Shown here one piece after another: positions 18,166 to 34,975 of a DNA stretch of 64,000 nt. The notes below the pieces were generated by a model that was given only the letters and a program-made list of their open reading frames with translations, searched no databases and was not told where the DNA came from. Source of the DNA: Leeuwenhoekiella nanhaiensis (GTDB lineage: Bacteria; Bacteroidota; Bacteroidia; Flavobacteriales; Flavobacteriaceae); the NCBI RefSeq assembly GCF_002744755.1, contig NZ_KZ319291.1, positions 186,001 through 250,000 of the forward strand, read 5' to 3'. Positions within the stretch are counted from its first letter, which is position 1; every line of letters begins with the position of its first letter. A program made the position numbers and the translations under genes.

Positions 18166-18177
18166 GCAATCGATTGC
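18166..18177. promoter_or_regulatory. LacI-type operator GCAATCGATTGC
   Basis: A perfect 12-bp palindrome with the central CG typical of LacI-family operators. The same 10-bp core CAATCGATTG occurs twice in front of the GH67 operon next to the lacI-type gene at 35000-36037. Here the operator covers the TTG of the -33 element (18174-18176), so a bound repressor would block RNA polymerase. Confidence 0.7.
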
Positions 18178-18202
18178 TTAAATTAGCAAAGTTCTAATTT
18201 TG
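18174..18202 (+). promoter_or_regulatory. Promoter of the second xylanase operon
   Basis: TTG (18174-18176), 18 bp, then TAATTTTG (18195-18202), which matches the Bacteroidota consensus TTG-N19-TAnnTTTG closely. The -7 element lies inside a perfect inverted repeat AAGTTCT (18189-18195) / AGAACTT (18203-18209), a possible second regulator site. Leader to the ATG at 18294 is about 85 nt. Confidence 0.7.
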
Positions 18203-18293
18203 AGAACTTCAATAGCTTAATACCATTTAGATCGAATACCCATTTTTAAGAAATAGAATATCCTAAACCACTGTATGTTTAAAATTTAATTTA

Positions 18294-19439
18294 ATGAAAA
18301 ACCTAATCTATCTATTCACAATCTTCACGCTTGTACTAAGCTGTAAACCAAAGGAATCAGAAAAAGACACTGCTATGCTAGAGGTGGAAAAACCTCTTGT
18401 TCTTAAAGATGCCCTTGCCGGTAAATTTTTAATGGGTACTGCACTCAATGCGCGTCAAATAAATGGTTTCAATCCGGAAGAGCTTGAGGTTGTAAAGGCA
18501 AACTTCAATTCTATCGTTGCCGAAAACTGTATGAAAAGTGAACGCCTGGTTCCTGAAAAGGGAAAATACGAGTGGGAAACCGCAGATAAGTTTGTCGATT
18601 TTGGAGAGCAGAATGGTATGGTCGTACACGGGCATACGTTGATTTGGCATTCTCAAACACCTAAATGGTTTTTTAAAGACGACGCGGGTAATGAGATTGA
18701 TAAGGAAGAACTTACTAAGCGGATGAAAGAGCATATAGCAACCGTGGTCACCCGTTATAAGGGGCGTATTAAATCATGGGATGTGGTTAACGAAGCTGTT
18801 TTAGATGACGGAAGTTTACGAGAAAGTAAATTCTACAAATTACTTGGTGAGGATTTTATAAAAATAGCTTTTGAAGCAGCTCACGAGGCCGATCCTGATG
18901 CAGAGCTGTATTACAATGATTATTCAACAGCGGTTCCTGAAAAAAGGGATGGTATCGTGCGTATGATTAAAAACCTACAGGCTCAGGGCGTACCCATTCA
19001 TGGTGTGGGTATGCAAGGACACGTAGGGATGGATTATCCGGAGTTGGAGGAATTTGAAAAAACCATTGAGGCTTTCTCAGATCTTGGACTTAAAGTTGCC
19101 GTTACCGAATTTGATATTACCGTTTTGCCTTCTCCCTGGAAAAATCAGGGGGCTGAGGTTTCGGCAAACTTTGACTATGAAGATCGAATGAATCCATATC
19201 CAGAGAAGCTTCCCGATAGCGTAAACACGGCTTTCAATGCCCGTTGTCTGGAATTTTTCAAGCTCTTTTTAAAGCACGAGGATAAACTTGATAAAGTAAC
19301 CATGTGGGGAGTTAACGACGGCAATTCGTGGAGAAACAACTGGCCGGTTGGCGGGCGTACCGATTACCCCTTGCTTTTTGATCGTCAAAACAAGCCTAAA
19401 GGTGTAGTAGATTCTATTGTACTTCTTGCCAAAAAATAA
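18294..19439 (+). CDS. GH10 endo-xylanase, lipoprotein
   Basis: The 381-residue protein has a lipoprotein signal (IFTLVLSC) and one complete, uninterrupted GH10 barrel. Landmarks: FLMGTALNARQI, VHGHTLIWHSQTPKWFF, acid/base Glu167 in WDVVNEAV, nucleophile Glu272 in VTEFDITV, and MWGVNDGNSWRNNWP near the C-terminus. It cuts beta-1,4-xylan or xylo-oligosaccharides. Being a compact lipoprotein, it may act in the periplasm on imported oligomers or at the surface beside the CBM-containing GH10. It is the first gene of a unit with two GH43 genes and the CE15 gene and is preceded by the LacI-type operator. Confidence 0.92.
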   Translation: MKNLIYLFTIFTLVLSCKPKESEKDTAMLEVEKPLVLKDALAGKFLMGTALNARQINGFNPEELEVVKANFNSIVAENCMKSERLVPEKGKYEWETADKFVDFGEQNGMVVHGHTLIWHSQTPKWFFKDDAGNEIDKEELTKRMKEHIATVVTRYKGRIKSWDVVNEAVLDDGSLRESKFYKLLGEDFIKIAFEAAHEADPDAELYYNDYSTAVPEKRDGIVRMIKNLQAQGVPIHGVGMQGHVGMDYPELEEFEKTIEAFSDLGLKVAVTEFDITVLPSPWKNQGAEVSANFDYEDRMNPYPEKLPDSVNTAFNARCLEFFKLFLKHEDKLDKVTMWGVNDGNSWRNNWPVGGRTDYPLLFDRQNKPKGVVDSIVLLAKK

Positions 19440-19445
19440 AAACCT

Positions 19446-21023
19446 ATGCGTTTACAAGGCCTGCTCAAGTCCCTTTTTATTTATTCAGTTTTTACGTGTG
19501 CATTGATTGGTGAATTCCAGGCTCAGGAAAAAGCTCAAAATCCACTGATTTACGCTGACGTACCCGATATGTCCATAATCAGGGTAGGAGATACCTACTA
19601 TATGAGTAGCACGACGATGCATATGAATCCCGGTGTGCCCATTATGAAATCTCAGGATTTAACCAATTGGAAACTGGTGAATTATGCATACGATACCTTA
19701 GTAGCTAATGATGCGATGAATCTGGATAACGGTCAGCAAACCTACGGACGGGGTTCCTGGGCAAGTTCGTTACGCTATCACGAGGGTGTCTATTACCTGT
19801 CAACTTTTTCAGCTACGTCAGGGATGACTCATATTTATACCACAAAAGACATCGAAAACGGTCCCTGGGAACTGCACGAATTTAAACCGGCTTACCACGA
19901 TCACACGCTGTTTTTTGAAGATGGAAAGATTTATATGATCTGGGGTGCCGGTGAGTTAAGTATTGTGGAATTAAATGCTGATTTATCCGGGGTAAAAGAA
20001 GAGACTAAAAAGATCTTAATTGAAAATGCTACCGCACCTATTGGGTCAAATATTATCTTACCTGCGGAAGGTTCACAGCTTTTTAAGCACGACGGTAAAT
20101 TTTATCTATTCAACATCGCATGGCCTCGTGGGGGGATGCGTACGGTGATCATTCACCGTGCAGATGATATCATGGGGCCCTATGAAGGTCGCCTGGCCCT
20201 GCAAGATCAGGGTGTCGCTCAGGGCGGACTCATCGATACCCCAGAGGGCGACTGGTATGCTTATTTATTTCAGGACAGCGGGGCTGTGGGTAGAATTCCC
20301 TATCTGGTTCCGGTAGAATGGAAAGACGGCTGGCCCGTTTTGGGTGTAGAGGGTAAAGTGCCCGAAACACTTGATTTACCCGAAAACAAAAGTCTGATTC
20401 CGGGAATAGCCCATTCAGATGATTTCAGTCGCGAGAAGGGTGACGGGTCTTTACCATTAGTTTGGCAATGGAATCACAACCCGAATAACGACCTGTGGTC
20501 TGTTGAAGAGCGCCCCGGTTTTTTAAGACTTAAAACCGGAAGAATTGATACCGCTTTTGTTCAGGCTAAAAATACATTGACACAACGAACGCTGGGACCG
20601 GTTTCTAGCGGAACTGTAAAACTTGATGTGTCTCAAATGAAAGCCGGTGACCGCGCCGGTCTCACGGTTCTTCAAAAAAAATATGGGATTATCGGAGTAC
20701 GTTGTGACGCAGATACTAAGCAGATTTACATGAGTAAAAATGCGGAAGACGGGGGTGTTATCGCAACCGTGCCCTTAAATCAGAATGAGGTATTTTTTAA
20801 GATTGAATGCGATTTTAGAAACCGCACAGACAAAGCCTATTTTTATTACAGTCTTGACGGAAAAACCTGGAATGAGTTGGGCAGCGTTTTGCAAATGCAG
20901 TACACCTTGCCTCATTTTATGGGTTACCGCTTCGGCCTGTTTAACTATGCTACAGAAACTCCCGGAGGCTGGGTAGACTTTGATTATTTCGAGATCGAAG
21001 ATGCCATCAGGCATTCGAAATAA
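19446..21023 (+). CDS. GH43 glycosidase with C-terminal beta-sandwich (xylosidase/arabinofuranosidase)
   Basis: The 525-residue protein has a signal peptide ending FQAQ. A five-bladed GH43 domain fills about residues 30-320: YADVPDMSIIRVGDTYYM carries the catalytic base region, and ILPAEGSQLFKHDGKFYLF contains the likely acid Glu. The C-terminal 190 residues form a beta-sandwich of the GH43_C2 type (VWQWNHNPNNDLWSVEERPGFLRLKTGR). This architecture resembles subfamily 12, which contains arabinofuranosidases and xylosidases. It starts 6 nt after the GH10 gene. The periplasmic role is trimming of imported xylo-oligosaccharides; which linkage is cut is open. Confidence 0.88.
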   Translation: MRLQGLLKSLFIYSVFTCALIGEFQAQEKAQNPLIYADVPDMSIIRVGDTYYMSSTTMHMNPGVPIMKSQDLTNWKLVNYAYDTLVANDAMNLDNGQQTYGRGSWASSLRYHEGVYYLSTFSATSGMTHIYTTKDIENGPWELHEFKPAYHDHTLFFEDGKIYMIWGAGELSIVELNADLSGVKEETKKILIENATAPIGSNIILPAEGSQLFKHDGKFYLFNIAWPRGGMRTVIIHRADDIMGPYEGRLALQDQGVAQGGLIDTPEGDWYAYLFQDSGAVGRIPYLVPVEWKDGWPVLGVEGKVPETLDLPENKSLIPGIAHSDDFSREKGDGSLPLVWQWNHNPNNDLWSVEERPGFLRLKTGRIDTAFVQAKNTLTQRTLGPVSSGTVKLDVSQMKAGDRAGLTVLQKKYGIIGVRCDADTKQIYMSKNAEDGGVIATVPLNQNEVFFKIECDFRNRTDKAYFYYSLDGKTWNELGSVLQMQYTLPHFMGYRFGLFNYATETPGGWVDFDYFEIEDAIRHSK

Positions 21024-21037
21024 AAGCAAGATCACTT

Positions 21038-22363
21038 ATGCGTATGCGTTCAAAAATCATCTTTTTTACACTTTGTGCAGTTTGGCTGTATTCTTTTGCC
21101 CTTCAGGCTCAGAACCCGTTGATTTTAGACCAGTATACCGCAGATCCTACAGCTCGGGTTTTTAATGACAAGTTGTATGTTTATCCCTCGCACGATATTT
21201 TATGTACCGAAGATAAAGGCCGTGTTGGCTGGTTTTGTATGGAAGATTATCATGTGTTTTCGTCACATAATCTCACAGCGTGGAAAGATCACGGTGAGAT
21301 TTTAAATCAGACCGAAGTTGCCTGGGCAGATCCTTCGGGCTACAGTATGTGGGCGCCTGATTGCGTGGAGCGCGACGGCAAATATTATTTTTACTTTCCA
21401 ACAAAGCCAAAGGACGAGAAAGGTTTCAAAATAGGCGTGGCAATCAGTGATTCGCCTGAAGGACCCTTTGTTCCACTTGAAGAGCCGATTGCCGGTGTAA
21501 ACGGAATCGATCCTAATGTTTTCATCGATGCCGATGGGCAGGCCTACTTATACTGGTCTGGCGGAAATATTTTTGTTGCCAAACTGAAGCCTAATATGAC
21601 TGAACTGGCTTCAGAACCTCAAATAATTGCAAACCTCCCACAGGAAGGTCTTAAGGAAGGGCCTTTTGTTTTTGAGCGAAATGGGAGCTACTATCTTACC
21701 TATCCGCACGTTGAAAATAAAACCGAACGTTTAGAGTATGCTATGGGCCCCACGCCTGAAGGTCCTTTTACGGTAACCGGAGTCATTATGGATGAAAGCC
21801 CTACGGGATGCTGGACAAACCATCAATCTATAGTAAATTTTAAAGACCAGTGGTATCTGTTCTACCATCATAATGACCTGTCTCCTGATTTTGATAAAAA
21901 TCGCTCTATACGGGCAGATAGCCTTTCATTTAATGCGGATGGTACTATTGTAAAAGTGCAGCCTACTTTGCGTGGTATTGGAATAAATAAAGCTACCGAA
22001 ACGATTCAAATAGACCGTTACAGCAGTAAAAGTAACTCGGCAAGGGTTCAATTTAACGATCCCGAAGCGCCGTTTAAAGGTTGGAACGCGGTTTTAAATA
22101 CAGGCGACTTTATCCGCTACAATCGGGTTGATTTTGAGACTAAGCTTTCTAAATTGAAGATTCACGTGAAATCGGAAGCAGGAGCAGTGCTCGAACTTAC
22201 ATTTGCAGATTCGGATGAACCCATCGTAGAATTAAAAGTTGCCAACACTGCAGACTGGAGTATTCTTGATTTTGATCTTGACCCCGTGACTGAAGGTGTT
22301 CACGATGTTGGAATCAAAGTAATTTCCGGCGCAGCAGCAATAGACTGGATTCAGTTCAGGTAA
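21038..22363 (+). CDS. GH43 glycosidase with C-terminal CBM6
   Basis: The 441-residue protein has a signal peptide (FALQAQ) and a GH43 propeller at about 25-310: LILDQYTADPTARVF with the base Asp, SGYSMWAPDCVERDGKYYFYFP, and LKEGPFVFERNGSYYLTY with the likely acid Glu. From about 320 to the end the sequence is CBM6-like, with alternating strands ending AAIDWIQFR, the usual C-terminal signature of that module. Such enzymes are mostly beta-xylosidases or arabinofuranosidases. It lies 14 nt after the first GH43 gene. Confidence 0.87.
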   Translation: MRMRSKIIFFTLCAVWLYSFALQAQNPLILDQYTADPTARVFNDKLYVYPSHDILCTEDKGRVGWFCMEDYHVFSSHNLTAWKDHGEILNQTEVAWADPSGYSMWAPDCVERDGKYYFYFPTKPKDEKGFKIGVAISDSPEGPFVPLEEPIAGVNGIDPNVFIDADGQAYLYWSGGNIFVAKLKPNMTELASEPQIIANLPQEGLKEGPFVFERNGSYYLTYPHVENKTERLEYAMGPTPEGPFTVTGVIMDESPTGCWTNHQSIVNFKDQWYLFYHHNDLSPDFDKNRSIRADSLSFNADGTIVKVQPTLRGIGINKATETIQIDRYSSKSNSARVQFNDPEAPFKGWNAVLNTGDFIRYNRVDFETKLSKLKIHVKSEAGAVLELTFADSDEPIVELKVANTADWSILDFDLDPVTEGVHDVGIKVISGAAAIDWIQFR

Positions 22364-22425
22364 GCGTAGTTTTAGAATCTAAGAGTGTTTGCGCTGGTTT
22401 TTTAGATATAATTTAAACTAAACCT

Positions 22426-23787
22426 ATGTGCAGACGTATTCAGTGTCGTTTTCTTATCGTGGTACTCATCCCTTTTTCGTTTTATGCTCAAAATACTTCG
22501 GCATTACGAGACAGTATCAATCGGTATAGTTATGCCGATTTTCTACAGATGAAAAAAACGCTTGGGATTGAGCAGGAAAACAGGCCCGGTCCTTCCGGAA
22601 ATCCCAATGATCCCAATTCCGCTAATTTTGATGAGAGTCAGGTACACGAATACTCTTTACCCTCACTATTGACCACCCAATCGGGTATGGAAGTCAATTC
22701 GGTAGCAGATTGGGAAAATCACAGACGACCGGAGCTAATTGCAGCATTTGAAAGCGAGATGTACGGTGCTGTGCCTGATGACATACCCTCAATTTCCTGG
22801 ACTATTAAATCGGAAAAAGATACCGTGATTGGCGGTATTCCTATACGCGAACAGCATCTTATAGGTACCGTAGATAACAGCAGGTACCCCAAACTCCGTG
22901 TAGCCATCGAAGCGCTTTTGGGGATTCCAAAAAAGAGTAATGATAAAGCGGTCCCTGTGGTAATTCAGTTTGGGTTTTTAAATTCTCCATTTGGAAAAGT
23001 AGAAGAACCCCGCAGTTTTTTTATTTCTCCATTTGAGCCCGGCTTTAAACAGCAACTGGCGCATCAGGGCTGGGCTTATGCCGTTTTAGACGTTTCTTCC
23101 ATTCAGGCAGATTACGGTGCCGGCCTCGATGCTGGCATCATAGGTTTGGTCAATCAGGGTCAATCCAGAACTCCAAAACAATGGGGTGCTTTGCGTGCGT
23201 GGGGTTGGGGTGCGAGCAAACTAGTTGATTATTTCGACACACGAACAGATCTGGATTCCAAACGGGTTGCAGTTGAAGGAACCTCGAGATACGGGAAAGC
23301 GGCCTTGGTGGCTATGGCTTTTGACAAGCGGATCTCACTCGGTTTTATTGGATCATCAGGAGCCGGCGGAGCTTCGTTATTACGCCGCAATTTTGGCGAA
23401 ATGCTTGAAAACCTCGCATCCCCGGCAGAATACCATTGGTTTGCCGGGAATTTTCTCAAATATGCCGGTATCAAAACCGTTAATGACCTTCCTGTAGATG
23501 CACACCAGCTCATTGCGCTCTGTGCACCCAGACCTGTATTTATAAGCGCGGGTTCTGCTAAAATTGAAGGACAGTGGGTAGATGCTAAAGGAATGTTTGA
23601 CGCAGCTGTTGAAGCTGCGCCGGTGTATGAATTGTACGGTCTCCGTGGGCCTGGCACCACTGATTTTCCGTTTATGGGAACTGCGCTGACCTCTGGCGAA
23701 CTCGCTTTTAGACAGCACGGTGGTGGGCATTCTACCGGCCCCAACTGGAGTACCTGGATTGCCTGGGCACGGCGCTACTGGGATTAA
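22426..23787 (+). CDS. CE15 glucuronoyl esterase
   Basis: The 453-residue alpha/beta hydrolase has a signal peptide (LIPFSFYAQ) and the bacterial CE15 pattern: RAWGWGASKLVDYFDT, the nucleophile elbow EGTSRYGKAAL with Ser287, YHWFAGNFLKYAG, LPVDAHQLIALCAPRPVFIS, and the late QHGGGHSTGP with His. CE15 enzymes cleave the ester between 4-O-methyl-glucuronate of xylan and lignin alcohols. The enzyme fits the two alpha-glucuronidases encoded on the other strand and shows that the locus is aimed at glucuronoxylan, perhaps in lignified cell walls. It is last in the operon, and its stop is 12 nt from the convergent sensor gene end. Confidence 0.9.
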   Translation: MCRRIQCRFLIVVLIPFSFYAQNTSALRDSINRYSYADFLQMKKTLGIEQENRPGPSGNPNDPNSANFDESQVHEYSLPSLLTTQSGMEVNSVADWENHRRPELIAAFESEMYGAVPDDIPSISWTIKSEKDTVIGGIPIREQHLIGTVDNSRYPKLRVAIEALLGIPKKSNDKAVPVVIQFGFLNSPFGKVEEPRSFFISPFEPGFKQQLAHQGWAYAVLDVSSIQADYGAGLDAGIIGLVNQGQSRTPKQWGALRAWGWGASKLVDYFDTRTDLDSKRVAVEGTSRYGKAALVAMAFDKRISLGFIGSSGAGGASLLRRNFGEMLENLASPAEYHWFAGNFLKYAGIKTVNDLPVDAHQLIALCAPRPVFISAGSAKIEGQWVDAKGMFDAAVEAAPVYELYGLRGPGTTDFPFMGTALTSGELAFRQHGGGHSTGPNWSTWIAWARRYWD

Positions 23788-23799
23788 CAGTATTTAAAT

Positions 23800-26700
23800 T
23801 TATTCCTTAAGATGGGTCTCCTGATACTTTTTAGGTGGAATCCCATAGAGGTTTTTAAAGCTGGTTGAGAAGGTAGATAAATTAGAGAAGCCTACCGCAT
23901 ACGCTACTTCAGCCACACTTATAGATTTTGAAGCCAAAAGATCTGCTGCTTGTTTCAGACGCACGTTTTTCATGAGATCACTAGCCGATTGGTTGGTCAG
24001 TTCTTTTAGTTTTCGATACAAATGCACGCGGCTAATACCTACAGCATTAGCGATCATTTCGACATTGAGGTTAGGGTTGTCCATATTCTCATTGATATAG
24101 CCCATTACCTTTTTCAACAGAATTTCGTCAGAACTTTCCAGCTCTATCTGTTTAACCTTGTCTTCCTGCAATTGACTGCCATCGTAGTTATTTTTAAGAA
24201 GCTTGCGGTTTTGAATGAGATTCAGTGCTGTTTTCTGTAGAATAGCCACGTCAAAAGGCTTGGGAATATAAGCATCAGCACCCAGATTCAAACTTTCCAG
24301 ATTACGCTCTTGGGTTGATTTCGCTGTAAGCAAAATCACCGGAATATGGTTGATGTTGATGTTTTTCTTGATGCGTTTGCAAAGTTCGAGACCATCCATT
24401 TCGGGCATCATAATATCGCTGATTACCAGGTCTGGATTTTCTTTCAGAATATAGCTTAAAGCTTCCTTCCCATTAGTGGCGAGATCAATACTAAAGCTTT
24501 GCGCCAACTCCCGTTTGATGTATTTACGAATTTCCAGATCGTCGTCAACAACCAGAATTTTGTGACCCGTAGAGCTTATCTCTTTTCCATTATGGGCTGC
24601 TAAGGGTTCTACAATATCTTCGGAAGCCGTCATTTTTAACTCACCCTGATACAACTGATGGGGTTTTAAATGCGCATCGCCCAGAGGAATTCGTGTTACA
24701 AACTTACAGCCTTTACCGCTTTCATTATTTTCGGCATAGATGGTACCATGGTGCAATTCTGCAATTGAACGGGTGAGGTTGAGCCCGATGCCGGTTCCTT
24801 CCAGATTGTGGGGTGTTGCTTTAATCTGATAGAAGCGGTCAAAGACAAATTTTTCCATCCCTTTCTTGATTCCTATTCCGTCATCAATAACACTTACTTC
24901 AAAGAATCCCGGGTGGTTTGCCTGCTCTTGATGAGGTTTGGTTTCAAGCAACACTTCAATGCTTCCGCCTTTGCTCACAAACTTCAGCGAGTTTGCCACC
25001 AGATTTTGAATGATTTTGTCGAAGTAATTTGGGTCTACCCACGCAAAGAGCTCATCCATCTGATGTTTAAATTCAAACTGAATTTGTTTTGCTTCAATCT
25101 GATCTTCAAAAATGGCACAGATATCAGCGATGTATTTGACTAATTCCACACGTTCAAAATGAAGTTCCAGTTGCCCACTATCAATTTTTCGAACGTCCAG
25201 AAGCTGATTAGCCAGATGGTAAATACGGTCTGTGTTGCGCATCATCGTCTCGTACGATTTACGTCTTACAGGATCCTCATCATTTCGCAGCAATTTTTTT
25301 AATGGATTGATAACCATTGTAAGCGGGGTGCGTATATCGTGCGAGATGTTTGTTAAAAATTGAAGCTTCGCCTCATTGATTTGTTTCGATTTTTGATATT
25401 CACGAAGGCGGTTTTTACTTTCCTGGCGCTGCTTTAACTCATAGATTACAATCGCTGTTACAATAACAAACAGGAGAAAATAAATGAGTTTTGCAGTGGT
25501 TGATAGGTACCAGAGCGGGTGTATGATTGCTGTGAAGTTTCTAATTTCTGAAAACTGATCATAGTCTTTAGCGCGCAATTTGAAATTGTAGGTTCCGGCT
25601 TCCAGATTGTCAAAAGCTACCGTATTTACTCCCGGAGTAAGATTGATCCAGGGCCCATCATTAACCGAATAGGCATAGGAGATCCGGTTTGGGTTTCGGT
25701 ACTCCATCGAAGAGAATTCAATGCTGAATGAATTATCCCGGTAGGCCAGATTTATGGTGTCTGCTTCAATGATGGCTTTATCAAGAATCTCGTAGGAGCC
25801 TGATTTCATTCCTTTACGCACGGGTGTGTTTTGCAGGTAGATGTCTATGATATAGATTTCAGGTCGCTTTTCAGTATCTACAATGGTTTGTGGGTTGAAA
25901 TAGGTAATCCCGTTCATTCCACCAAAAATCAACTGATTTTCCTGATACAGATAGGACGCATTTTTACTGAACTCGTTGCCCTGTAAACCATCGTTGAAAT
26001 AGTAATTGAGAAAGGTCTTCTTAGTCGGATTAAATTCAGAGATACCATGATTAGTACTCACCCAAAGCATCCCATTGCTGTCCTGCTCTATAGCACAAAT
26101 GGTATTGTTGGGCAGACCGTCTTCAATAGTATAATGGGCAAGCAGCTGAAAGTCCCGGTCTGTTTTCTTGAGTCCGTTTGCGGTTCCTAGCCACAAATTG
26201 TCATCGGCATCAGTATGGATGGTGTAAATGATTTCTCCATCAAATTTCCGGATGCCGTTTTTGTAAGTAATAAATTTTTGATCAGTCAGGTCAAACTGAC
26301 TGATACCGTCGTAAGAGGCCACATACAGGATTCCCCTTGAGCGATCGAGCAAGAGGTTGTTAATCCACTTATTGTTGAAAAATTTTGGACCTTCAGGACC
26401 GTCTGCAATTTCTACATTGCACGAAGTGATCGCATTGGTTTTTAGGTTTAGTTTAAAAAGACCCGATCCCATTGAGCCCAGCCATAAGTTATCACCGTCG
26501 TCTTCAACAATGGTATAAATACTTTTAACCGGATTCCCCAGCTCGTCAACCAGATTATTGACAAATTGTATTTGATCCGTGTTTTCTTCAATTTTTGCCA
26601 GTCCGTTAAGATAGGTTCCTATCCAAATGGTATTACGGCTGTCTTCAAAAATGGAGACCACGGTGTTTAGTTTACTGCCCAGATAATTCTGGTCTTTGTA

Positions 26701-27897
26701 ATGCCGAATCACTTCGTTTTCTGGCGAAATGGCATACAAACCATCCCCATCTGTACCAACCCATAAAACACCTTCAGAGTCTTTAAAGACGGCCATTACA
26801 CAGTTAGAGCCAATGATGTCGAGTTCACTCGATTCATAGCCTATGTAGTTGAAATTATTGATCTTTTTAGGAAGCAGCACTACGCCTTTTTGATACAGTC
26901 CCAGCCAGGTATTGCCCGAGTCATCTTCAATTATATCGTGTACCTTTGATTTTGAAGAATCAAAGCTTGAAACCATAATGGGATAGGGGGAAAGTGTTTG
27001 CGTATCAGGGTCAAATCGAAACAATCCATCCCCGTCTGTACCCACGAGCATCTCGTTTTCTGAATTGAGGTACAGGCTGTGAATGACCAGATGTTTAGTG
27101 TTTGGGATCGCTTCAAAAGCTGAACGATTCGGATTTAATTTAAACAAGCCCTGAGTGTAGCTGGCAGCGTAAATGTTTCCTTCCTGATCTTCCCCAATAG
27201 CAGAAAGTGACGCCCGAACACTATCTCTCTGAAAGTACGGCGTAACCGTATTATTTGGATTTACAACATACAAGCCACTTTCGGGAGTTATGAACCAGAG
27301 TTTATGCTTGCTATCCTGAAAAATATGATCTACAAAAGCAGTGGGCAAGAAGTTTGGAAGGTTTTCGGCCAGAAAATCATCTCCATTTTTTTGAAGTCTA
27401 AAAACCCCACGCCCGGATGTCCCTATAAGAATTTCGCCGGTTTTGCGCTGGGTAATATTGGTCACATGCGCGTCATAAGTGTATTCTTCGTTAATCGAGA
27501 GGGGAATCTGTTTAAAAGAATCTGTGGCGTGATCGTAAATTTGAAGCCCGTTGAAAAACCCAAAATAGAGGTTGTTTTTGTCGTCTTCAAAAATGCTTTT
27601 TACGTAATTGTTTAAAAGAGAAGTAGAGTCCTGAGCATTCTTCTTATAGGTGACAAATTTAGCTCCGTCGTATTTGTTGAGTCCATCTTCAGTGGCAATC
27701 CAGACATAGCCTTTATGATCCTGATAAATAGCATTGATTAAGCTACTTGATAACTCTGAATCTGAAGAAAAAATCCTTCCATTTTGAGCCGAAAGACTTA
27801 AAACGAAAAGAACATGCAGCAGTATGAAAAATTTTACTCTTAGATTCAAGATAAACAGTTTATGATGTTTTAACGCGCTTTGCAAGCCGATGTTCAT
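23800..27897 (-). CDS. Hybrid two-component system sensor/regulator (HTCS) of the xylan locus
   Basis: One 1365-residue protein joins a whole signalling pathway. After a signal or TM segment (about 24-37) come periplasmic propeller repeats (GYVWIATEDGLNKYDG and many similar) to about 690, a Y_Y_Y domain, a TM segment near 800, a histidine kinase (FLTNISHDIRTPLT, then HATPase with NLVANSLKF and GTGIGLNLT), a receiver domain (ILVVDDDLEIRK, SDIMMPEMDGLELC) near 1115-1225 and a C-terminal AraC-type HTH (VAEVAYAVGFSNLSTFSTSFK). HTCS proteins sense an oligosaccharide in the periplasm and activate the linked polysaccharide locus. It is likely equivalent to XynR of Prevotella, acting at the xusA promoter. 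The gene is convergent with CE15 and lies downstream of GH115. Confidence 0.93.
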   Translation of the reverse strand: MNIGLQSALKHHKLFILNLRVKFFILLHVLFVLSLSAQNGRIFSSDSELSSSLINAIYQDHKGYVWIATEDGLNKYDGAKFVTYKKNAQDSTSLLNNYVKSIFEDDKNNLYFGFFNGLQIYDHATDSFKQIPLSINEEYTYDAHVTNITQRKTGEILIGTSGRGVFRLQKNGDDFLAENLPNFLPTAFVDHIFQDSKHKLWFITPESGLYVVNPNNTVTPYFQRDSVRASLSAIGEDQEGNIYAASYTQGLFKLNPNRSAFEAIPNTKHLVIHSLYLNSENEMLVGTDGDGLFRFDPDTQTLSPYPIMVSSFDSSKSKVHDIIEDDSGNTWLGLYQKGVVLLPKKINNFNYIGYESSELDIIGSNCVMAVFKDSEGVLWVGTDGDGLYAISPENEVIRHYKDQNYLGSKLNTVVSIFEDSRNTIWIGTYLNGLAKIEENTDQIQFVNNLVDELGNPVKSIYTIVEDDGDNLWLGSMGSGLFKLNLKTNAITSCNVEIADGPEGPKFFNNKWINNLLLDRSRGILYVASYDGISQFDLTDQKFITYKNGIRKFDGEIIYTIHTDADDNLWLGTANGLKKTDRDFQLLAHYTIEDGLPNNTICAIEQDSNGMLWVSTNHGISEFNPTKKTFLNYYFNDGLQGNEFSKNASYLYQENQLIFGGMNGITYFNPQTIVDTEKRPEIYIIDIYLQNTPVRKGMKSGSYEILDKAIIEADTINLAYRDNSFSIEFSSMEYRNPNRISYAYSVNDGPWINLTPGVNTVAFDNLEAGTYNFKLRAKDYDQFSEIRNFTAIIHPLWYLSTTAKLIYFLLFVIVTAIVIYELKQRQESKNRLREYQKSKQINEAKLQFLTNISHDIRTPLTMVINPLKKLLRNDEDPVRRKSYETMMRNTDRIYHLANQLLDVRKIDSGQLELHFERVELVKYIADICAIFEDQIEAKQIQFEFKHQMDELFAWVDPNYFDKIIQNLVANSLKFVSKGGSIEVLLETKPHQEQANHPGFFEVSVIDDGIGIKKGMEKFVFDRFYQIKATPHNLEGTGIGLNLTRSIAELHHGTIYAENNESGKGCKFVTRIPLGDAHLKPHQLYQGELKMTASEDIVEPLAAHNGKEISSTGHKILVVDDDLEIRKYIKRELAQSFSIDLATNGKEALSYILKENPDLVISDIMMPEMDGLELCKRIKKNININHIPVILLTAKSTQERNLESLNLGADAYIPKPFDVAILQKTALNLIQNRKLLKNNYDGSQLQEDKVKQIELESSDEILLKKVMGYINENMDNPNLNVEMIANAVGISRVHLYRKLKELTNQSASDLMKNVRLKQAADLLASKSISVAEVAYAVGFSNLSTFSTSFKNLYGIPPKKYQETHLKE

Positions 27898-27939
27898 TTT
27901 GGCTGTCAGTACTTGATTAATATACAGATTTTCAGGTTA

Positions 27940-27958
27940 CAAGCTATCGACTAGCTTG
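27940..27958. repeat. Inverted repeat upstream of the HTCS gene
   Basis: CAAGCTA (27940-27946) and TAGCTTG (27952-27958) with a 5-nt spacer lie 43 nt upstream of the HTCS start. GTTAC boxes at 27936-27940 and 27965-27969 flank it and resemble those at the xusA promoter. A regulatory role, such as autoregulation, is only a guess. Confidence 0.3.
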
Positions 27959-28001
27959 CAAGATGTTACTTTTTTCAGGAACTGAAAACAGTTTCCACAA
28001 G

Positions 28002-30806
28002 TTAGTCTTTTAATCCCGCAAACGTTACAGGAGTCAGGTAGAAAGACTGATTATTTGATTCTGCTTTCAGTACCAGATTTTGCAAAACAATTCCCGGATC
28101 TATACCGTAAATTTTTAAGGTGTGCTGACCTGCTTTTAAATTTACAGGTGCCACAACACGGGTTACATTATTAGCCACGCTGCTGTTCCAGTTGTCTGGA
28201 GTGTTTTTATGCATATTAAGCGTTTGTACAGGCTCATCATCAATCTGATATTGAAATTGTAGTCCGCCCTGATTTTTAAAATCCAGGGTGGGAGACAGGT
28301 TAAACGTGATCGTACCTTCAATAGCTTCGTTAGCGTAAAACTCGTAGGTAAGAGTGGTGTTTTCAGGTGTGATATCTTTTGAGAATGTATTCTCAGGTCG
28401 CAGGGCGATGTCCTGTCTGCCGAGATCAGGGATCTGCTCCCAACCCGTGTTTGCGGTAAATGCGTTAGTAGGTATGCTGATCATTCCGGCGTAGGATACT
28501 GCTCCCTTAGCATCAGCAGGATAGGGATTGTAACGTACATTTAGGTTTGCGGTTCCATTGTCAGATTGGATAGTGATGATACCCTCCTGATCTGAAGCAG
28601 GTAATTTGCCTGTAATTAAACTTAAAGTCAGCTGCTGTTCCGTTTTTACGGCTCCTTTTTTCTGATCAACTTTCAGCCATTTTGGTAATTTCTTGATTTT
28701 GTAGTCTACCTCTTCCTTTCCGGTGTTGAACAGGGTGAGTTGCTGATGCTGATGCGACTGATCAAAAGGCAACACATTCAAAACCTGATCTTTTGGGAAA
28801 TAGGCTTCGGTTCCTGCTACTGAGATTCCCAGATTTCCTTCCTGCGGAACTTCAATCTGTTTAGTTTCGGGAATGACATTTTGCCTGGGTTCCTGCCAGT
28901 AGGTATAACCTATGTGGGTTTGATCCATAAAATGATTCCACTTAGAGTCGTTGAGGCTGTGATAGGCTTTGGTGAGTTCTTTGTCTTTTTCAAAAAATGC
29001 GGCTACCTGTTCCGCATAGGCGTTTGCGGTATTTCGGCCCTGTTCGGCATATAAATGGTTTTTTGCCGCGGCGATATACAACCTGTTGAGGTTTGCCATC
29101 GCTTCAATGGGAAACAAAACCAGTTGGTAATAAGCCGATTGATACGACGCGTCGAGTTGTTCTTTAATTCTTTTCGCCTCCTGCTCCAGCTTGTCATATT
29201 CCTGAAGGATGCGTTCCGCTTCATTAAAATGATTGAGGCTGAAAGTCTTCGGACTCAATAGCTCAGGTTTGCGACGGCTTGCCAGTGTGCTGTAGGTCTG
29301 AATCAACCCGGCAATTTCAGAAGCGTAGTTGTCGCCAAATTGCGCTGCAGCCCATTGTTTAGGGTATTTTTTTAAATCGGCAAGGTCGAAGCTTTCCGGA
29401 TTCCAGGCATAGTCCAGAAAGAAGCTGATGGGATATTCCATCGGTTTAATGTCGCCCACGTTTACAATCCAGATTTTACGGGCGTTATATTCGTAAGCCA
29501 GGGACATCTGCTCGTAAACACGTGAAATTTGATTGGTGTTGAGCCATTTGTAGTTACGCGGTCCGCCCACGTAATCAAAGTGATAGTAAATACCATAACC
29601 GCCGCTGCGCTCTGCATCTTCCGGATTGGGCAGTTTGCGAATATTTCCCCAGTTATCATCCGCCAGAAGCAGCGTAACATCATCAGGTACGCGCATCCCC
29701 TGATCGTAATAATCCTGTACTTCTTTATACAAGGCCCAGAGTTGCGGAGTCTCACTTGCAGGCTTTCCGGTAACGTCTTCAATAATTTGACGTTGGTCTT
29801 TTACAATCCCTTCCAGCAGTTCAATGGCGGTTCCCTCAGTCATGGGTTCGTCACCATCACCACGCATTCCCACGGTTACGATACTTTCATTATCGCCCAT
29901 ACGCTCTATGCCCGCTTTCCAGAAATCCCGTAAAACCTCGGGATTGGTATTGTAATTCCAGTCGCCCTCCCCGTAGCGATCCCATTCCACGTGAGCCCGC
30001 ATCAAGGGTTCGTGATGCGAAGTGCCTATCACCACGCCGTATTTTTCGGCCTGTACGGCATTTTCAGGATCATCATCGTAAAAGGCGCGTCCCCACATCG
30101 CCGGCCAGAGGTAATTGCCTTTCAGTCTTAAAATCAGTTCAAAAACGTGCTCGTAAAACTCGTGATTAAAACTGCCGTAATTTTCACCCACCCAGCCCGA
30201 TAGAGCCGGGGCCTCGTCATTGATGAAAATTCCCCGGTATTGTACTTTAGGCCCCGGGTTGGTATAGTTTGCCGTATTCACATAAAGCTGCTCTGATTTT
30301 TTGACCGGTACATCTGCCCACCAATACCAGGGCGAAACCCCTATTTCTTCCGAAAGCGTGTATATGCCGTAAATCGTACCGCGTTTATCGCTACCGGCGA
30401 TAACCAGATTTCCGTCTATCTGCTGTATGCTAAAGGCTTCCCACTGGTTTTTAATAGTGGAAACATTCAGTTTACCGGTTTGTGCCAGCGAGTCAATAAA
30501 GCTGCTCTTCCCAAGCGTACCAATAATCAATTGCGGTTTGCCTGAAAGTCTGTTGAAAACTTCCGGTTTTTTACCGGTGACCCGCTCCAGATCGAGCTGC
30601 AGGTTTTTAGCGGCGATATGCACGCCTTCGTAATCTGCAGCGTCGACGACCAGATTTGCGGTTGTTTTTGAATCACTCAGCGTAAAAGCTCCGGTTGCAG
30701 GTGTGGTGGATACCACATTTTGCTGTGCAAAGAGTCCTTGAAAAGATATCAGGGCAATAGCGACTACCAGTTTTTGAAGGTTTAGCTTGAATGATTTTAA
30801 AAACAT
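28002..30806 (-). CDS. GH115 xylan alpha-1,2-glucuronidase
   Basis: The 934-residue protein has a signal peptide (FQGLFAQ) and the GH115 layout: an N-terminal alpha/beta domain (VVDAADYEGVHIAAKNLQLDLERVTG), a TIM barrel with YRGIFINDEAPAL, LRLKGNYLWPAMWGRAF, GTSHHEPL and WIVNVGDIKPMEYP, then helical and C-terminal beta domains (WEQIPDLGRQDIALRP). These enzymes remove (4-O-methyl-)glucuronic acid from internal xylose residues of the polymer or long oligomers. The gene is 16 nt downstream of uxuA in the GH67-SDR-uxuA-GH115 operon. Confidence 0.93.
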   Translation of the reverse strand: MFLKSFKLNLQKLVVAIALISFQGLFAQQNVVSTTPATGAFTLSDSKTTANLVVDAADYEGVHIAAKNLQLDLERVTGKKPEVFNRLSGKPQLIIGTLGKSSFIDSLAQTGKLNVSTIKNQWEAFSIQQIDGNLVIAGSDKRGTIYGIYTLSEEIGVSPWYWWADVPVKKSEQLYVNTANYTNPGPKVQYRGIFINDEAPALSGWVGENYGSFNHEFYEHVFELILRLKGNYLWPAMWGRAFYDDDPENAVQAEKYGVVIGTSHHEPLMRAHVEWDRYGEGDWNYNTNPEVLRDFWKAGIERMGDNESIVTVGMRGDGDEPMTEGTAIELLEGIVKDQRQIIEDVTGKPASETPQLWALYKEVQDYYDQGMRVPDDVTLLLADDNWGNIRKLPNPEDAERSGGYGIYYHFDYVGGPRNYKWLNTNQISRVYEQMSLAYEYNARKIWIVNVGDIKPMEYPISFFLDYAWNPESFDLADLKKYPKQWAAAQFGDNYASEIAGLIQTYSTLASRRKPELLSPKTFSLNHFNEAERILQEYDKLEQEAKRIKEQLDASYQSAYYQLVLFPIEAMANLNRLYIAAAKNHLYAEQGRNTANAYAEQVAAFFEKDKELTKAYHSLNDSKWNHFMDQTHIGYTYWQEPRQNVIPETKQIEVPQEGNLGISVAGTEAYFPKDQVLNVLPFDQSHQHQQLTLFNTGKEEVDYKIKKLPKWLKVDQKKGAVKTEQQLTLSLITGKLPASDQEGIITIQSDNGTANLNVRYNPYPADAKGAVSYAGMISIPTNAFTANTGWEQIPDLGRQDIALRPENTFSKDITPENTTLTYEFYANEAIEGTITFNLSPTLDFKNQGGLQFQYQIDDEPVQTLNMHKNTPDNWNSSVANNVTRVVAPVNLKAGQHTLKIYGIDPGIVLQNLVLKAESNNQSFYLTPVTFAGLKD

Positions 30807-30822
30807 AATTGATTTGTTTGAT

Positions 30823-31989
30823 TTAATTCTTCTGTAATCCCAGCTCCAGACCGGTGAGTTCTGCCAAACCTTTCAGTCTTCCTATAAAGGAATAACCCAC
30901 ATAATAAGGTTTGTGCTTTTCCAGTGCATGTAAATACCCGTGATCTGGGCGCATCGGGATTCGCTTACCGTTGGTGGTGGTATAATCGATGATTTGCCGC
31001 ATCACCTGCTTCATTGGTACGTCGCCGTCCAGATGGTCTGATTCATAAAATGAACCGTCTTCAAATTTTTGAACATTTCGCAAATGCAGAAAATGTACCC
31101 GCTCTTTATGTGTGTCAAAAATCTGAGGCAAATCATTTGCCGGGTTGGCGCCCAGCGAACCAGTGCAATAGCAAAGGCCGCAAGAGGTTGATTCGATTTG
31201 CGAAAAGATGTAGTTGAGGTCTTCTGCCGTGCTCACAATGCGCGGTAATCCCAAAACCGAAAACGGCGGATCATCCGGGTGAATGGCCAGTTTGGCACCC
31301 ACGGCATCAGCGGTAGACGTTACTGCTTTTAGGAATAGTACTAGGTGTTCGCGCAATTTGCTTTCATCAATATCTTTATATTCGGCGAGTTGATTCAGGA
31401 GGTCTTCGGTAGTGAAATCTACGGTGCTGCCGGGTAAGCCCAGCATCACGCTCTTTTTAAGCACCTCGCGCTCTTCTTCAGAAAGCGAGTCGTATTTTTC
31501 TTTGGCTTCGGCGACCTGCGCTTCGGTATAATCGCTTTCGGCTCCGGGTCTTTTCAGAATAAACAGGTCAAAAGCTTTAAACTTTACGGGATCGTATTTT
31601 AAAATTTCGGCACCTACCGCATTTTTAAAGCGGTGATCGGTGCGCACCCAGTCCAGAATGGGCATAAAGTTATAGGTGATCGTGTAAATGCCCTGATCGG
31701 CCAGATTCTTAAGGCTTACTTTATAATTTTCAATAAGCTCCTCATAGTTTCCGGTGCGTTTTTTAATGTTTTCGTGCACCGGTAAACTCTCTACCACATC
31801 CCAGGTCATTCCGGCGGCTTCAATCTTATCTTTGGTTTTTTTAATTTCTTCAGGAGACCAAATATCCCCGACCGGAATGTGATGCAAAGCAGTTACAATT
31901 CCGGTAATACCTGCCTGACGTAAGTCTTCAAGGCTTAATAAATCGCGCTCTCCATACCAGCGCATTGTTTTGATAATGGTTGTATTCAT
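30823..31989 (-). CDS. uxuA: Mannonate dehydratase
   Basis: The 388-residue cytoplasmic protein matches UxuA along its length: MRWYGERDLLSLEDLRQAGITGIVTALHHIP at the start (split here by conserved Trp/Glu positions), KLAIHPDDPPFSVLGLPRIVST, GLCYCTGSLGA, HFLHLRNVQ and PDHGYLHAL. It dehydrates D-mannonate to 2-keto-3-deoxy-D-gluconate, a step in glucuronate breakdown. It abuts the SDR gene (stop and start at 31990/31989), consistent with sequential steps. Glucuronate isomerase (UxaC) and the later KDG enzymes are not in this window. Confidence 0.94.
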   Translation of the reverse strand: MNTTIIKTMRWYGERDLLSLEDLRQAGITGIVTALHHIPVGDIWSPEEIKKTKDKIEAAGMTWDVVESLPVHENIKKRTGNYEELIENYKVSLKNLADQGIYTITYNFMPILDWVRTDHRFKNAVGAEILKYDPVKFKAFDLFILKRPGAESDYTEAQVAEAKEKYDSLSEEEREVLKKSVMLGLPGSTVDFTTEDLLNQLAEYKDIDESKLREHLVLFLKAVTSTADAVGAKLAIHPDDPPFSVLGLPRIVSTAEDLNYIFSQIESTSCGLCYCTGSLGANPANDLPQIFDTHKERVHFLHLRNVQKFEDGSFYESDHLDGDVPMKQVMRQIIDYTTTNGKRIPMRPDHGYLHALEKHKPYYVGYSFIGRLKGLAELTGLELGLQKN

Positions 31990-32730
31990 TTAAAATCCTA
32001 TTGAGTTTCCACCGTCTACACAAAGCACGGTGCCAGTTGTAAATTTAGAAAGATCGGAAGCATAGTAATAAACGGTATCGCCAATGTCTGCGGGCTCTCC
32101 CAGTTTGCCCATCGGGGTACGGCCCAATACCTTGTTCTTGCGTTCCGGGTCGCTGTCAAGCGCTTTGCTCGACATATTGGTTTTGATAAACCCGGGTGCC
32201 ACGCAATTCACCCGTATACCAAAGGGCGCCAGATCAACCGCCATAGAACGCGTCATTCCCTCAATCGCCGATTTGCTGGCCGTGTAGGCGACCACCTTGG
32301 GAATCCCGTACTGAGCTGCCATCGAACTGATGTTAATGATGCTGCCCGAATTTTGACTTTTCATCACTTTGGTCACTTCACGAGACACCACAAACACACT
32401 GGTCAGGTTGGTGTGAATGATGCGCTGAAATTCGTCATCGGTAACCTCGAGGAAGTCTTTTTTCATGTTAATCCCCGCATTGTTCACCAAAATGTCAATG
32501 CTGCCTGCTTCTTCTGCAATATGTGCTATGGCCTGCGGAATTTTATCGAGTTCCGCCAGGTCAAGAATATAGGTCCGGGCATTGGGACCCAGCTCCTGCC
32601 GGGCCTGCTCCGTTTTTTCGGCGTTGCGGCCTATGATGTAGGTGATGATGTTTTCATCACAGAGTTTTTTTGCGGTTGCGAAACCTAAACCGGCATTGCC
32701 GCCGGTAACTAATGCTACAAGTTGTTTCAT
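31990..32730 (-). CDS. SDR family oxidoreductase, probable fructuronate reductase substitute for UxuB
   Basis: The 246-residue SDR has LVTGGNAGLGFATA for cofactor binding, NNAGIN, and catalytic ISSMAA...AYTASKSA. It ends with the typical VDGG. It is tightly packed between GH67 (1 nt) and uxuA (0 nt). Since UxuA needs D-mannonate, and no UxuB-type long-chain dehydrogenase is near, this SDR probably reduces D-fructuronate to D-mannonate. SDRs in this role occur in other Bacteroidota uronate loci. The family is clear, the substrate is inferred from context. Confidence 0.82.
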   Translation of the reverse strand: MKQLVALVTGGNAGLGFATAKKLCDENIITYIIGRNAEKTEQARQELGPNARTYILDLAELDKIPQAIAHIAEEAGSIDILVNNAGINMKKDFLEVTDDEFQRIIHTNLTSVFVVSREVTKVMKSQNSGSIINISSMAAQYGIPKVVAYTASKSAIEGMTRSMAVDLAPFGIRVNCVAPGFIKTNMSSKALDSDPERKNKVLGRTPMGKLGEPADIGDTVYYYASDLSKFTTGTVLCVDGGNSIGF

Positions 32731-32731
32731 A

Positions 32732-34882
32732 TTAATCCCAAGAGGGTTTTATACCGGGAGCATACCGGTCCCGGATGGATTCATAATAATCAAGAGTGTG
32801 TTTGGCTTCCGGAATAAACTCCGGCATTTCTTTATTTGAGAACTGCTGAAAATACAGCAGACACGAGTCGCGCCACCATTGGGCTTCCTCAAGTTGAATG
32901 CTCAAAAGCATCCGCGTTTTTTCATAAACCTGTTCGCCCACATATGGCTTCATATCCTGCCAGGTGTTGATCATCGCTTCAACTTCTTCCACACCATCCT
33001 GATATTTTCGCGCCAGATTGTACCAAAGCGTCTGGCCATTATCAAGCTTATAATCCCAGGGCACATGGTGAAACCAAAGCAGATATTCTTGTGGTGTGGT
33101 TTCTATGTTTTTATAGGCGTTTTCAATTTCAGGAGCGTATTGAGCAAGCGCACCGCTACCGGTGGAGGTGCGGTCAAAACCAATCCCAAGGCTGTCTGCC
33201 TTGTGATAGTACACCGAGGTCCAGTCTTCCCGGCCCAAATCTTTAACCCAGGGACCCGGACCCTGATGATGTCCTTCGGCCATGATGTGGTGCAGTCCCA
33301 GCGGCGTCATATAGTTTACGACCGCTTCGCGCGAATCGAGCAGGAGGGAGGTCATAGGCTTTACAAATTCGGGATCAGGCGTAAAGGTCTGTGCCAGCCA
33401 TTCTTCGGCGATGGTTTTTGCGCTGAGTTCAGGATTCCAGGCCAGGCGGCCAAAGCCGTACCAGTTTGCCTGTGCAAAAGGATGCCCGGTCCAGTTGCGC
33501 GAATTACCGATGTTTGAGACACCAGCCATACCGGTTAATTTTTTGTTTGTTAGGCTACCGTCAACCACTTGAGCTACCGTGCTTCCGGCTCCTTTAGCGT
33601 AGGTATCTGCCTGTAGCGTTTCTTCGAAAAGTTTGGGTAAAAATGCCAGATGAGACATTCCGCCCAGATATTCCTGAGTGATTTGAAATTCCATCATCAA
33701 TGGAGTTTCGGGCATCGCGCCAAATAAAGGATGAAAAGGCTCACGCGGCTGAAAATCGATAGCCCCATTTTTTACCTGAACCAGTACGTTATCTTTAAAT
33801 TTTCCGTCGAAGGGAACAAACTCGCTATAGGCCTGCTTTGCCCGGTCTTCCGGCTTTTCATCGGAATACACAAAAGCACGCCACATCACAATTCCGTTAT
33901 AGGGTTCCACGGCCTCAGCCAGCATATTGGCGCCGTCTACGTGAGACCTGCCGTAATTGTTAGGTCCCGGTTGTCCTTCTGAATTGGCCTTTACCAGAAA
34001 CCCACCAAAATCAGGAATATGCGTATAGATTTCTTTTGCTTTTTCATTCCACCAGTTTTGAACTTCAGCGTTAAGCGGATCTGCAGTTTGGAGTCCGCCA
34101 ATTTCTATGGGGGCCGAAAAGCGTGCGGTTAGGTACACCTGTATTCCATAAGGTCTGAAGGCGTCTGCAAGCGCTTTTACTTTTTGCAGGTAATCGTCCT
34201 GAAGGATGTAAGCGCTGGCGTTTACGTTGTTTAAAACCGTACCGTTAATGCCGATTGACGCATTGGCGCGGGCATAATCTATATACTCTTCTTTGATGAG
34301 ATTAGGCAACAAATGCCAGTCCCAGATCGAGAAGCCGGCATAACCGCGCTCGATAGTGCGATCCAGATTATCCCAATGGTTGAGCAGTCTTTTTTTGATT
34401 TTCGGAGCATCGGTGATTTCCAGTTGCGACAGGTCTTTGTGCCGCTGCATTTCTCGCAGGTAGGCAAACGTACCATACAACAGTCCTGTTTCAGTAGTAG
34501 AACTGATTACGATAACCTCGCGCTTATCCAGGCGCGTGGCCTGTATTTTATATGCATCTTCCGGCAGATCTTCGAGTTCTTTAAATTCTTTTTTTAGACT
34601 TTGTGGAAGGGCTGCATGTTTGAGTATCAGCAGCGTCGGCTGTTCTGAGCTCTTAGCAACAGTATGATTCAGCATTCCGTCAAATGCCAGATTCAGCTCT
34701 TTAAGAATTACTTTTCCGGTTGCGGTTGTGGTGTCAAGCTGTACCTGAGCGTTCAAATTTTTATAGTCTTCTACAAGCTTTGGATTTTTGATTTCGGCAT
34801 ACTGAAGCCAAAGTTTATAACCATCCTGAGCCATCAGGATCTGACCAAAGAATAGGAAAACTAGCGTAATGATGTTTTTCAT
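32732..34882 (-). CDS. aguA: GH67 alpha-glucuronidase
   Basis: The 716-residue protein has a signal peptide (FFGQILMAQ) and the family layout: N-terminal GLLYGTFAYLREMQRH, the barrel with RLLNHWDNLDRTIERGYAG, DFGGFLVKANSEGQPGPNNYGR and GIVMWRAFVY, and a C-terminal helical domain (WFHHVPWDYKL). GH67 removes (4-O-methyl-)glucuronate from the non-reducing end of aldouronic acids, complementing GH115. A periplasmic location is predicted. It is the first gene of the - strand uronate operon; its upstream region carries two LacI-type operators. Confidence 0.94.
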   Translation of the reverse strand: MKNIITLVFLFFGQILMAQDGYKLWLQYAEIKNPKLVEDYKNLNAQVQLDTTTATGKVILKELNLAFDGMLNHTVAKSSEQPTLLILKHAALPQSLKKEFKELEDLPEDAYKIQATRLDKREVIVISSTTETGLLYGTFAYLREMQRHKDLSQLEITDAPKIKKRLLNHWDNLDRTIERGYAGFSIWDWHLLPNLIKEEYIDYARANASIGINGTVLNNVNASAYILQDDYLQKVKALADAFRPYGIQVYLTARFSAPIEIGGLQTADPLNAEVQNWWNEKAKEIYTHIPDFGGFLVKANSEGQPGPNNYGRSHVDGANMLAEAVEPYNGIVMWRAFVYSDEKPEDRAKQAYSEFVPFDGKFKDNVLVQVKNGAIDFQPREPFHPLFGAMPETPLMMEFQITQEYLGGMSHLAFLPKLFEETLQADTYAKGAGSTVAQVVDGSLTNKKLTGMAGVSNIGNSRNWTGHPFAQANWYGFGRLAWNPELSAKTIAEEWLAQTFTPDPEFVKPMTSLLLDSREAVVNYMTPLGLHHIMAEGHHQGPGPWVKDLGREDWTSVYYHKADSLGIGFDRTSTGSGALAQYAPEIENAYKNIETTPQEYLLWFHHVPWDYKLDNGQTLWYNLARKYQDGVEEVEAMINTWQDMKPYVGEQVYEKTRMLLSIQLEEAQWWRDSCLLYFQQFSNKEMPEFIPEAKHTLDYYESIRDRYAPGIKPSWD

Positions 34883-34903
34883 AAATGAAAGGAGTCTTTA
34901 ATC

Positions 34904-34915
34904 TCAATCGATTGC
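34904..34915. promoter_or_regulatory. LacI-type operator, proximal site of the GH67 operon
   Basis: TCAATCGATTGC shares the 10-bp palindromic core CAATCGATTG (34905-34914) with the sites at 34952 and 18166. It lies 22 nt before the GH67 start codon, downstream of the promoter, and is centred 48 bp from the distal site, a spacing that would allow cooperative binding or looping. Confidence 0.65.
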
Positions 34916-34942
34916 AGAGGCAATCAAAAACGGAAATTTACT

Positions 34943-34975
34943 GAAAATTAGACAATCGATTGCGTTAATTGCAAA
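34943..34975 (-). promoter_or_regulatory. Promoter of the GH67-SDR-uxuA-GH115 operon
   Basis: On the - strand TTTG (complement of 34972-34975), 21 bp, then TAATTTTC (complement of 34943-34950), seven of eight positions like the Bacteroidota promoter. The distal operator lies between the two elements. Confidence 0.55.
34952..34963. promoter_or_regulatory. LacI-type operator, distal site of the GH67 operon
   Basis: ACAATCGATTGC holds the core CAATCGATTG (34953-34962) and lies between the -33 and -7 elements of the GH67 promoter, so a bound protein would exclude RNA polymerase. The lacI-type gene ends 37 nt away. Confidence 0.7.

Follow-up and report, generated by a model that had tools for sequence, protein, structure and literature searches.

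A conserved palindrome as candidate operator of a LacI-family regulator of glucuronoxylan operons in Leeuwenhoekiella nanhaiensis and other Bacteroidota

INTRODUCTION

In Anaerocellum (Caldicellulosiruptor) bescii, the LacI-family regulator XynR has a regulon composed of a xylanase, a beta-xylosidase, esterases and the aguX-uxuBA alpha-glucuronidase/glucuronate operon (PMC12285236). Its operators have been verified and are of the GAAATCGCTTTC type, with tcatgaaatcgctttcctat and tttagaaatcgttttctaaa as examples (PMC12285236). Here, we describe a LacI-family protein with a similar set of predicted targets in Leeuwenhoekiella nanhaiensis. The protein is encoded in a 64,000 nucleotide stretch of contig NZ_KZ319291.1 (positions 186,001 to 250,000, called the window below, to which coordinates refer unless a contig or locus is named), together with palindromes of the form GCAAYCGRTTGC that probably serve as its operators. 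As in the XynR regulon, xylanase, xylosidase, esterase and alpha-glucuronidase/uxuBA functions are joined, in our case as GH10, GH43, CE15, GH3, SASA esterase, GH67, uxuA and GH115 genes under matching sites. The XynR operators tcatgaaatcgctttcctat and tttagaaatcgttttctaaa share an AAATCG..TTT core and resemble a variant palindrome, GAAATCGATTTC, that is found before the xusA gene of the window. However, XynR operators are generally GAAATCGCTTTC-like, whereas the main operator here is GCAAYCGRTTGC, so that only the variant resembles those of XynR. The XynR host is a Firmicute with ATP-binding cassette transporters and without SusCD proteins or a hybrid sensor; the likeness between the two regulators concerns their predicted function.

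Hybrid two-component sensors or extracytoplasmic function sigma factors are the regulators usually named for xylan loci of Bacteroidota. The LacI-family proteins UxuR (BT1434), UxaR (BT0824) and KdgR (BT0487) of Bacteroides thetaiotaomicron have predicted roles in glucuronate and galacturonate metabolism and belong to a taxon-specific branch (PMC3878776, PMC4052901). They have been described for cytoplasmic uronate pathways, and not for xylan operons with GH67, GH10 and CE15 genes. The predicted targets of the window protein include an SDR gene and uxuA, as in uronate regulation, but the L. nanhaiensis paralogue that sits in a pectin/uronate cluster falls outside the orthologue clade of the window protein. 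Judged by gene context, this paralogue looks like the nearer counterpart of the three Bacteroides regulators. In Xanthomonas campestris, a TonB-dependent system for xylan and glucuronate is under the control of LacI proteins, similar to what is proposed here, although this host belongs to the Gammaproteobacteria. The regulators in question are reportedly named XylR and UxuR. In Gramella flava JLT2011, another flavobacterium, a lacI gene has been annotated in xylan loci that also contain GH67 and SusCD, and the passages on these loci describe neither operator nor regulon (PMC5306329). A sugar switch built on a LacI protein is of a familiar kind. The example added here comes with a predicted operator and an orthologue group, and the trace that these leave in the phylum is unusually clean. 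Literature searches for the operator sequence found no paper giving it.

RESULTS

Copies of the palindrome in the window and in the genome

The window contains three exact copies of the 10-bp palindrome CAATCGATTG, at 18167-18176, 34905-34914 and 34953-34962. The initial annotation had the count and the latter two positions right, and placed the first copy at 18168-18177, off by one. As it had also noted, the full 12-mer GCAATCGATTGC is present at 18166-18177; the other two sites each carry one outer mismatch to it. Two of the three sites have the ACGCAATCGATTG form. None of 100 dinucleotide shuffles of the window had three or more exact copies (mean 0.08).

Pattern searches of the whole 4.37-Mb genome found six copies of CAATCGATTG, including the three in the window, and a single copy of a reversed control pattern. 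Among the three copies elsewhere, one is in the coding sequence of a fasciclin-like gene, one is in a predicted small open reading frame, and one (C2:678490; L001 1501) is intergenic and precedes a DUF4249-like outer-membrane gene (both genes named by eye). The intergenic copy recurs in the closely related Leeuwenhoekiella sp. SP167 (L235 1500). Instead of many random copies away from promoters, which would have spoken against a regulatory role, we find few, concentrated at promoters. With one mismatch allowed, GCAATCGATTGC occurs at 15 places, several of them coding, and we therefore accepted as targets only those whose promoter context is conserved. Loose matches to CAAYCGRTTG (L142, L143, L144, L148, L149 and L151) were rejected as targets, as they lie in coding sequence.

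Position of the sites relative to promoters

The site at 18166-18177 (here as below, palindromes are given without strand) was found by pattern and promoter match. It precedes a plus-strand operon (18294-23787, assigned by Pfam) for GH10, GH43 (GH43_C2), GH43 (CBM6) and a glucuronoyl esterase (CE15-like). As had been proposed, the candidate operator lies over the -33 element. It covers the TTG at 18174-18176, and a perfect putative -7 element, TAATTTTG, follows 18 bp further on (18195-18202, plus strand). The same site is found in SP167, 61 bp before the GH10 gene (L183).

The other two sites belong to the minus-strand operon for GH67, an SDR (mannonate oxidoreductase-like, UxuB-like), UxuA and GH115 (28002-34882, assigned by Pfam and NCBIfam). 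Both follow the stop codon of lacI and lie within the GH67 promoter region and outside the lacI promoter. In minus-strand reading, the outer site is GCAATCGATTGT (34952-34963) and is located between the putative -33 element TTTG (34975-34972) and the putative -7 element TAATTTTC (34950-34943) of a minus-strand promoter spanning 34943-34975. The inner site, GCAATCGATTGA in the same reading (34904-34915), lies 22 nt ahead of the start codon of GH67, with a spacing of 48 bp between the two sites. The 48-bp spacing recurs in another orthologue locus (L029). The proposed overlap of sites and predicted promoters thus applies to the GH10 site and the outer GH67 site; it does not extend to the palindrome before xusA, where a search of the neighbourhood found no -33/-7 pair.

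Conservation across Bacteroidota

Conservation was assessed in 80 loci of the LacI orthologue with mapped neighbouring genes. Apart from pure A/T sequences, no 10-bp palindrome occurs in as many of these loci as CAATCGATTG (30 of 80). The exact 12-mer GCAATCGATTGC occurs 25 times in 15 loci, compared with at most one locus for each of 179 composition-matched permuted palindromes. With up to one mismatch, it is found in 50 loci, and the next-best permuted palindrome in 19. A GH67 gene with a usable start is present in 49 loci, and the 300 bp upstream of it contain GCAAYCGRTTGC in 43 of these when one mismatch is allowed (exact in 19 of 49). The two next motifs in this comparison (11 and 10 loci) are near-copies of GCAAYCGRTTGC, and all other motifs are found in at most one locus. 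A tabulation over 25 species shows nearly invariant core positions AA..CGATTG and a consensus of about TTTACGCAAYCGATTGC.

Among 199 genomes of the family, 19 encode a LacI protein with 49% identity or more. These average 2.16 sites each, compared with 0.43 in the other 180 (Mann-Whitney p 1e-6), an association that is partly phylogenetic. Among the sites listed for these genomes, 17 of 29 are within 25 kb of the orthologue, where about 1% would be expected. In 15 named relatives, sites precede uxaC, GH67, GH10, GH3, GH115, a symporter-GH43 operon, SusCD operons and lacI (several names were assigned by eye from N-terminal sequence). Sites upstream of orthologous genes span flavobacterial, cytophagal, chitinophagal and sphingobacterial lineages. 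One LacI gene inside the Bacteroidota clade comes from a contig labelled as Thalassovita sp. (Alphaproteobacteria; L057), which has probably been misbinned.

The data are hard to reconcile with the idea that the three copies in the window are chance repeats without function, which we consider extremely improbable. It is true that the 12-mer with two mismatches is no commoner in the window than in the shuffles, and that the remaining genomic copies include coding ones. However, the exact copies exceed every shuffle, and the retention of sites upstream of orthologous genes across lineages contradicts this idea. The conservation in related genomes on which the initial annotation had made its proposal depend is strong. 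Together with the small number of promoter-placed copies, it supports the prediction that the GH10-GH43-GH43-CE15 and GH67-SDR-uxuA-GH115 operons are under one LacI-type operator.

The same comparison bears on a different candidate for the binding protein. Between the two operons, at 23800-27897 on the minus strand, there is a gene for a hybrid two-component sensor (Reg_prop propeller, Y_Y_Y, HisKA, HATPase, receiver and AraC-type helix-turn-helix by Pfam), and Bacteroidota xylan loci are usually controlled by such sensors (PMC10766802, PMC11784079). Nevertheless, the palindromes are most unlikely to be its sites. Across the phylum, the gene that constantly accompanies the sites is the LacI gene, and many site-bearing loci have no related hybrid sensor in the retrieved 21 kb. 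Moreover, a short, perfect, CpG-centred palindrome is generally expected for LacI operators and not for AraC-type sites.

Assignment of the palindrome to a LacI-family protein

The gene at 35000-36037 (minus strand) encodes a protein of 345 amino acids with an N-terminal LacI helix-turn-helix domain (recognition stretch LNYSPSTISRAL) and a periplasmic-binding-like effector domain. Pfam matches are LacI (5.7e-10) and Peripla_BP_3 (4.7e-32), with Peripla_BP_1/4 also above cut-offs, and the best solved relatives are CcpA, RbsR and PurR. By domain architecture, the product is a member of the LacI/GalR family. Palindromic operators with a central CpG near sugar-gene promoters are a trait of this family, as is repression that a small sugar effector relieves, and the conserved GCAAYCGRTTGC at -33/-7 positions appears to represent such an operator. 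In a phylogeny, the window protein groups with its orthologues in a clade of 82 rows (support 100/98) that contains none of the genome's five other LacI-family proteins.

The base that directly flanks the core varies with the recognition helix. It is C in 90 and T in 53 cases for the ST[IV]SR class, and C in 16 and T in 64 cases for the [AT]TVSR class, in a tally that includes some coding matches. The outlying uronate-cluster paralogue, with helix SAATVS, agrees with this trend, as it has GTGCAATCGATTG sites in relatives. The sites could in principle be operators of this paralogue (own_L152, in a KdgR/UxaR-like position), with the window LacI protein binding elsewhere or sharing them. The gene of the paralogue is located at about 237.9-238.9 kb of contig C4, and its loci do carry related palindromes. 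GTGCAATCGATTGTATTT is found about 200 bp upstream of the paralogue in L. polynyae and L. marinoflava (L234, L239), Maribacter (L184) has GTGCAATCGATTGCAC beside it, and in L. nanhaiensis itself, TTGTGCAATCGATTACATTT precedes a DUF4861-KduI-SDR-uxaC-kinase cluster. We nevertheless regard this assignment as unlikely. The sites of the paralogue carry a T outside the core, whereas two of the window sites are ACGCAATCGATTG, typical of the ST[IV]SR class, and in relatives the sites cluster beside the orthologue of the window LacI gene.

Several sites were noted next to other LacI-family genes. Those of the pectin/uronate-cluster clade have the form GTGCAATCGATTRYA, with the same core and other outer bases (L234 and L239 near 1500; L184 near 4400; L230 at 5015, corresponding to G000 C4:226014), which suggests that the paralogues are told apart by the operator flanks. 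The palindromes ACTTAATCGATTTAGT (L153 5041-5056, contig C19) and ACTCTAACGTTAGAGT (L154 5530-5545, contig C9) lie upstream of two other LacI-family genes of L. nanhaiensis and are likely operators of these genes' own products. In Mucilaginibacter-like genomes, a second LacI clade also has GCAATCGATTG sites (L192 4284-4408, L085 16541, L107 16831), in L192 divergent from xylulokinase and xylose isomerase genes, so that two regulators may share an operator there.

Five observations weigh against the assignment of the palindromes to the window LacI protein or against their role as its operators. First, the same core is present beside the paralogous uronate-cluster LacI gene in L. polynyae, L. 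marinoflava and Maribacter, and because paralogue loci carry it, the core alone cannot name the binding protein. Second, the correlation between helix and operator is confounded with phylogeny. Third, exact copies exist within coding sequence, for example in L006 and in uxaC of Salegentibacter. Fourth, an operator before lacI itself, present in many relatives, is absent here. Inspection of the region upstream of lacI in L. nanhaiensis found no operator, and autoregulation was therefore rejected for this genome. Fifth, the stretch retrieved for the xylA locus, in which the start of xylB is not included, has no site.

Further sites in the genome

The initial annotation described a local regulon. 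This is too narrow, because further sites are found at GH3-esterase and SusCD operons, at a sugar symporter gene and at xusA. GCAATCGGTTGC (C2:633067) and CAATCGGTTG (C2:633382) lie in the interval that separates a GH3-SASA-esterase operon from a divergent SusC gene, and the GH3-side site is kept in SP167 and L. polynyae. GCAATCGATTTC (C1:448493) precedes an MFS_2 sugar symporter gene and has been retained in SP167. In L. marinoflava, GAAATCGGTTGC is found at a related symporter, and the Lutibacter counterpart gene is preceded by GCAATCGATTGC. The initial annotation had also looked to uxaC, kdgK and xylose genes as targets. In L. nanhaiensis, xylose genes are probably not part of the regulon. 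At the kdgK/uxaC cluster, the only site is GCAATCGATTAC, which lies further upstream and probably belongs to a paralogue.

The related palindrome before xusA, a SusC-like gene, was correctly noted in the initial annotation: GAAATCGATTTC is present at 4738-4749, 33 nt before the start codon. Its candidate target is the plus-strand xus operon (4782-17996, assigned by Pfam), which encodes two SusC/SusD pairs, a DUF5627 protein and a GH10 enzyme; for the second SusC-like protein, the Pfam match is to the N-terminal carboxypeptidase-regulatory-like domain only. GAAATCGATTTC recurs at the corresponding positions in SP167 (L206) and L. marinoflava (L212), and has six copies in the L. nanhaiensis genome, three of them coding. 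It is probably a weaker or related operator with xusA as its only retained target. Copies are also found 17 bp before an alpha-L-arabinofuranosidase gene (L221 2993, corresponding to C2:573892) and 444 bp before a SusC-like gene (L220 2997, corresponding to C3:288696), and these genes are possible further members of the regulon.

On the other side of lacI, the window encodes an adjoining 1115-residue FG-GAP repeat protein with an ASPIC/UnbV domain (36162-39509), relatives of which are found near SusC-like genes in L030-L032 and L056.

DISCUSSION

Sites, promoter overlap, conservation and linkage to the orthologue group were computed, and from these we infer binding, repression, the effector and cooperation with the hybrid sensor. 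With good confidence, we take the palindromes to be operators of the LacI-family protein at 35000-36037, which would act as a repressor of glucuronoxylan use until a cytoplasmic xylan degradation product releases it. A LacI dimer would bind sites of the TTWACGCAAYCGRTTGC type that overlap the -33/-7 promoters of the GH67 and GH10 operons or lie within them, and would thereby block RNA polymerase, which is the natural reading of the operator positions. Import and degradation of glucuronoxylan oligosaccharides would then yield a cytoplasmic product that binds the effector domain and releases the repressor. The GH3-acetylesterase operon with the divergent SusCD operon, the sugar symporter gene and probably the xus operon would belong to the same regulon. 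The hybrid sensor next to the locus is likely a second, activating regulator and would be expected to provide a separate, periplasmic input.

Candidates for the effector are xylose, a xylo- or aldouronic oligosaccharide, or a glucuronate intermediate. In Flavobacteriia, the most constant neighbours of the orthologue are GH67, SDR (UxuB-like) and uxuA genes, a context suggestive of glucuronate or an aldouronate as the signal. However, glucuronate is not established as the effector, because in a Saprospiraceae-like metagenome-assembled genome (L064), the regulator sits with xylA and xylB and without glucuronate genes. There, the regulator is found between GH10-symporter-GH43-GH3 and xylulokinase-xylose isomerase genes (8013-13842; names partly by eye), with operators at both promoters, and the retrieved 20 kb contain no homologue of GH67, SDR or uxuA. 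A ligand from the xylose side is at least as likely as one from the glucuronate side.

More tentatively, and with somewhat less than even confidence, we propose that one LacI lineage with a nearly fixed operator controls glucuronoxylan use across several Bacteroidota classes, as a cytoplasmic veto over the hybrid sensor. The effector might shift between the xylose and glucuronate sides as GH67 and uxuA are gained or lost, and the divergence of the operator flanks from those of the uronate paralogue might avoid cross-talk.

The LacI repressor would add a testable second layer of control in marine and soil glucuronoxylan degraders. The combination of a defined operator and an orthologue group may make regulon members predictable from sequence in many genomes. 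Finally, the short and presumably inducible operator is a candidate genetic tool for Flavobacteriia.

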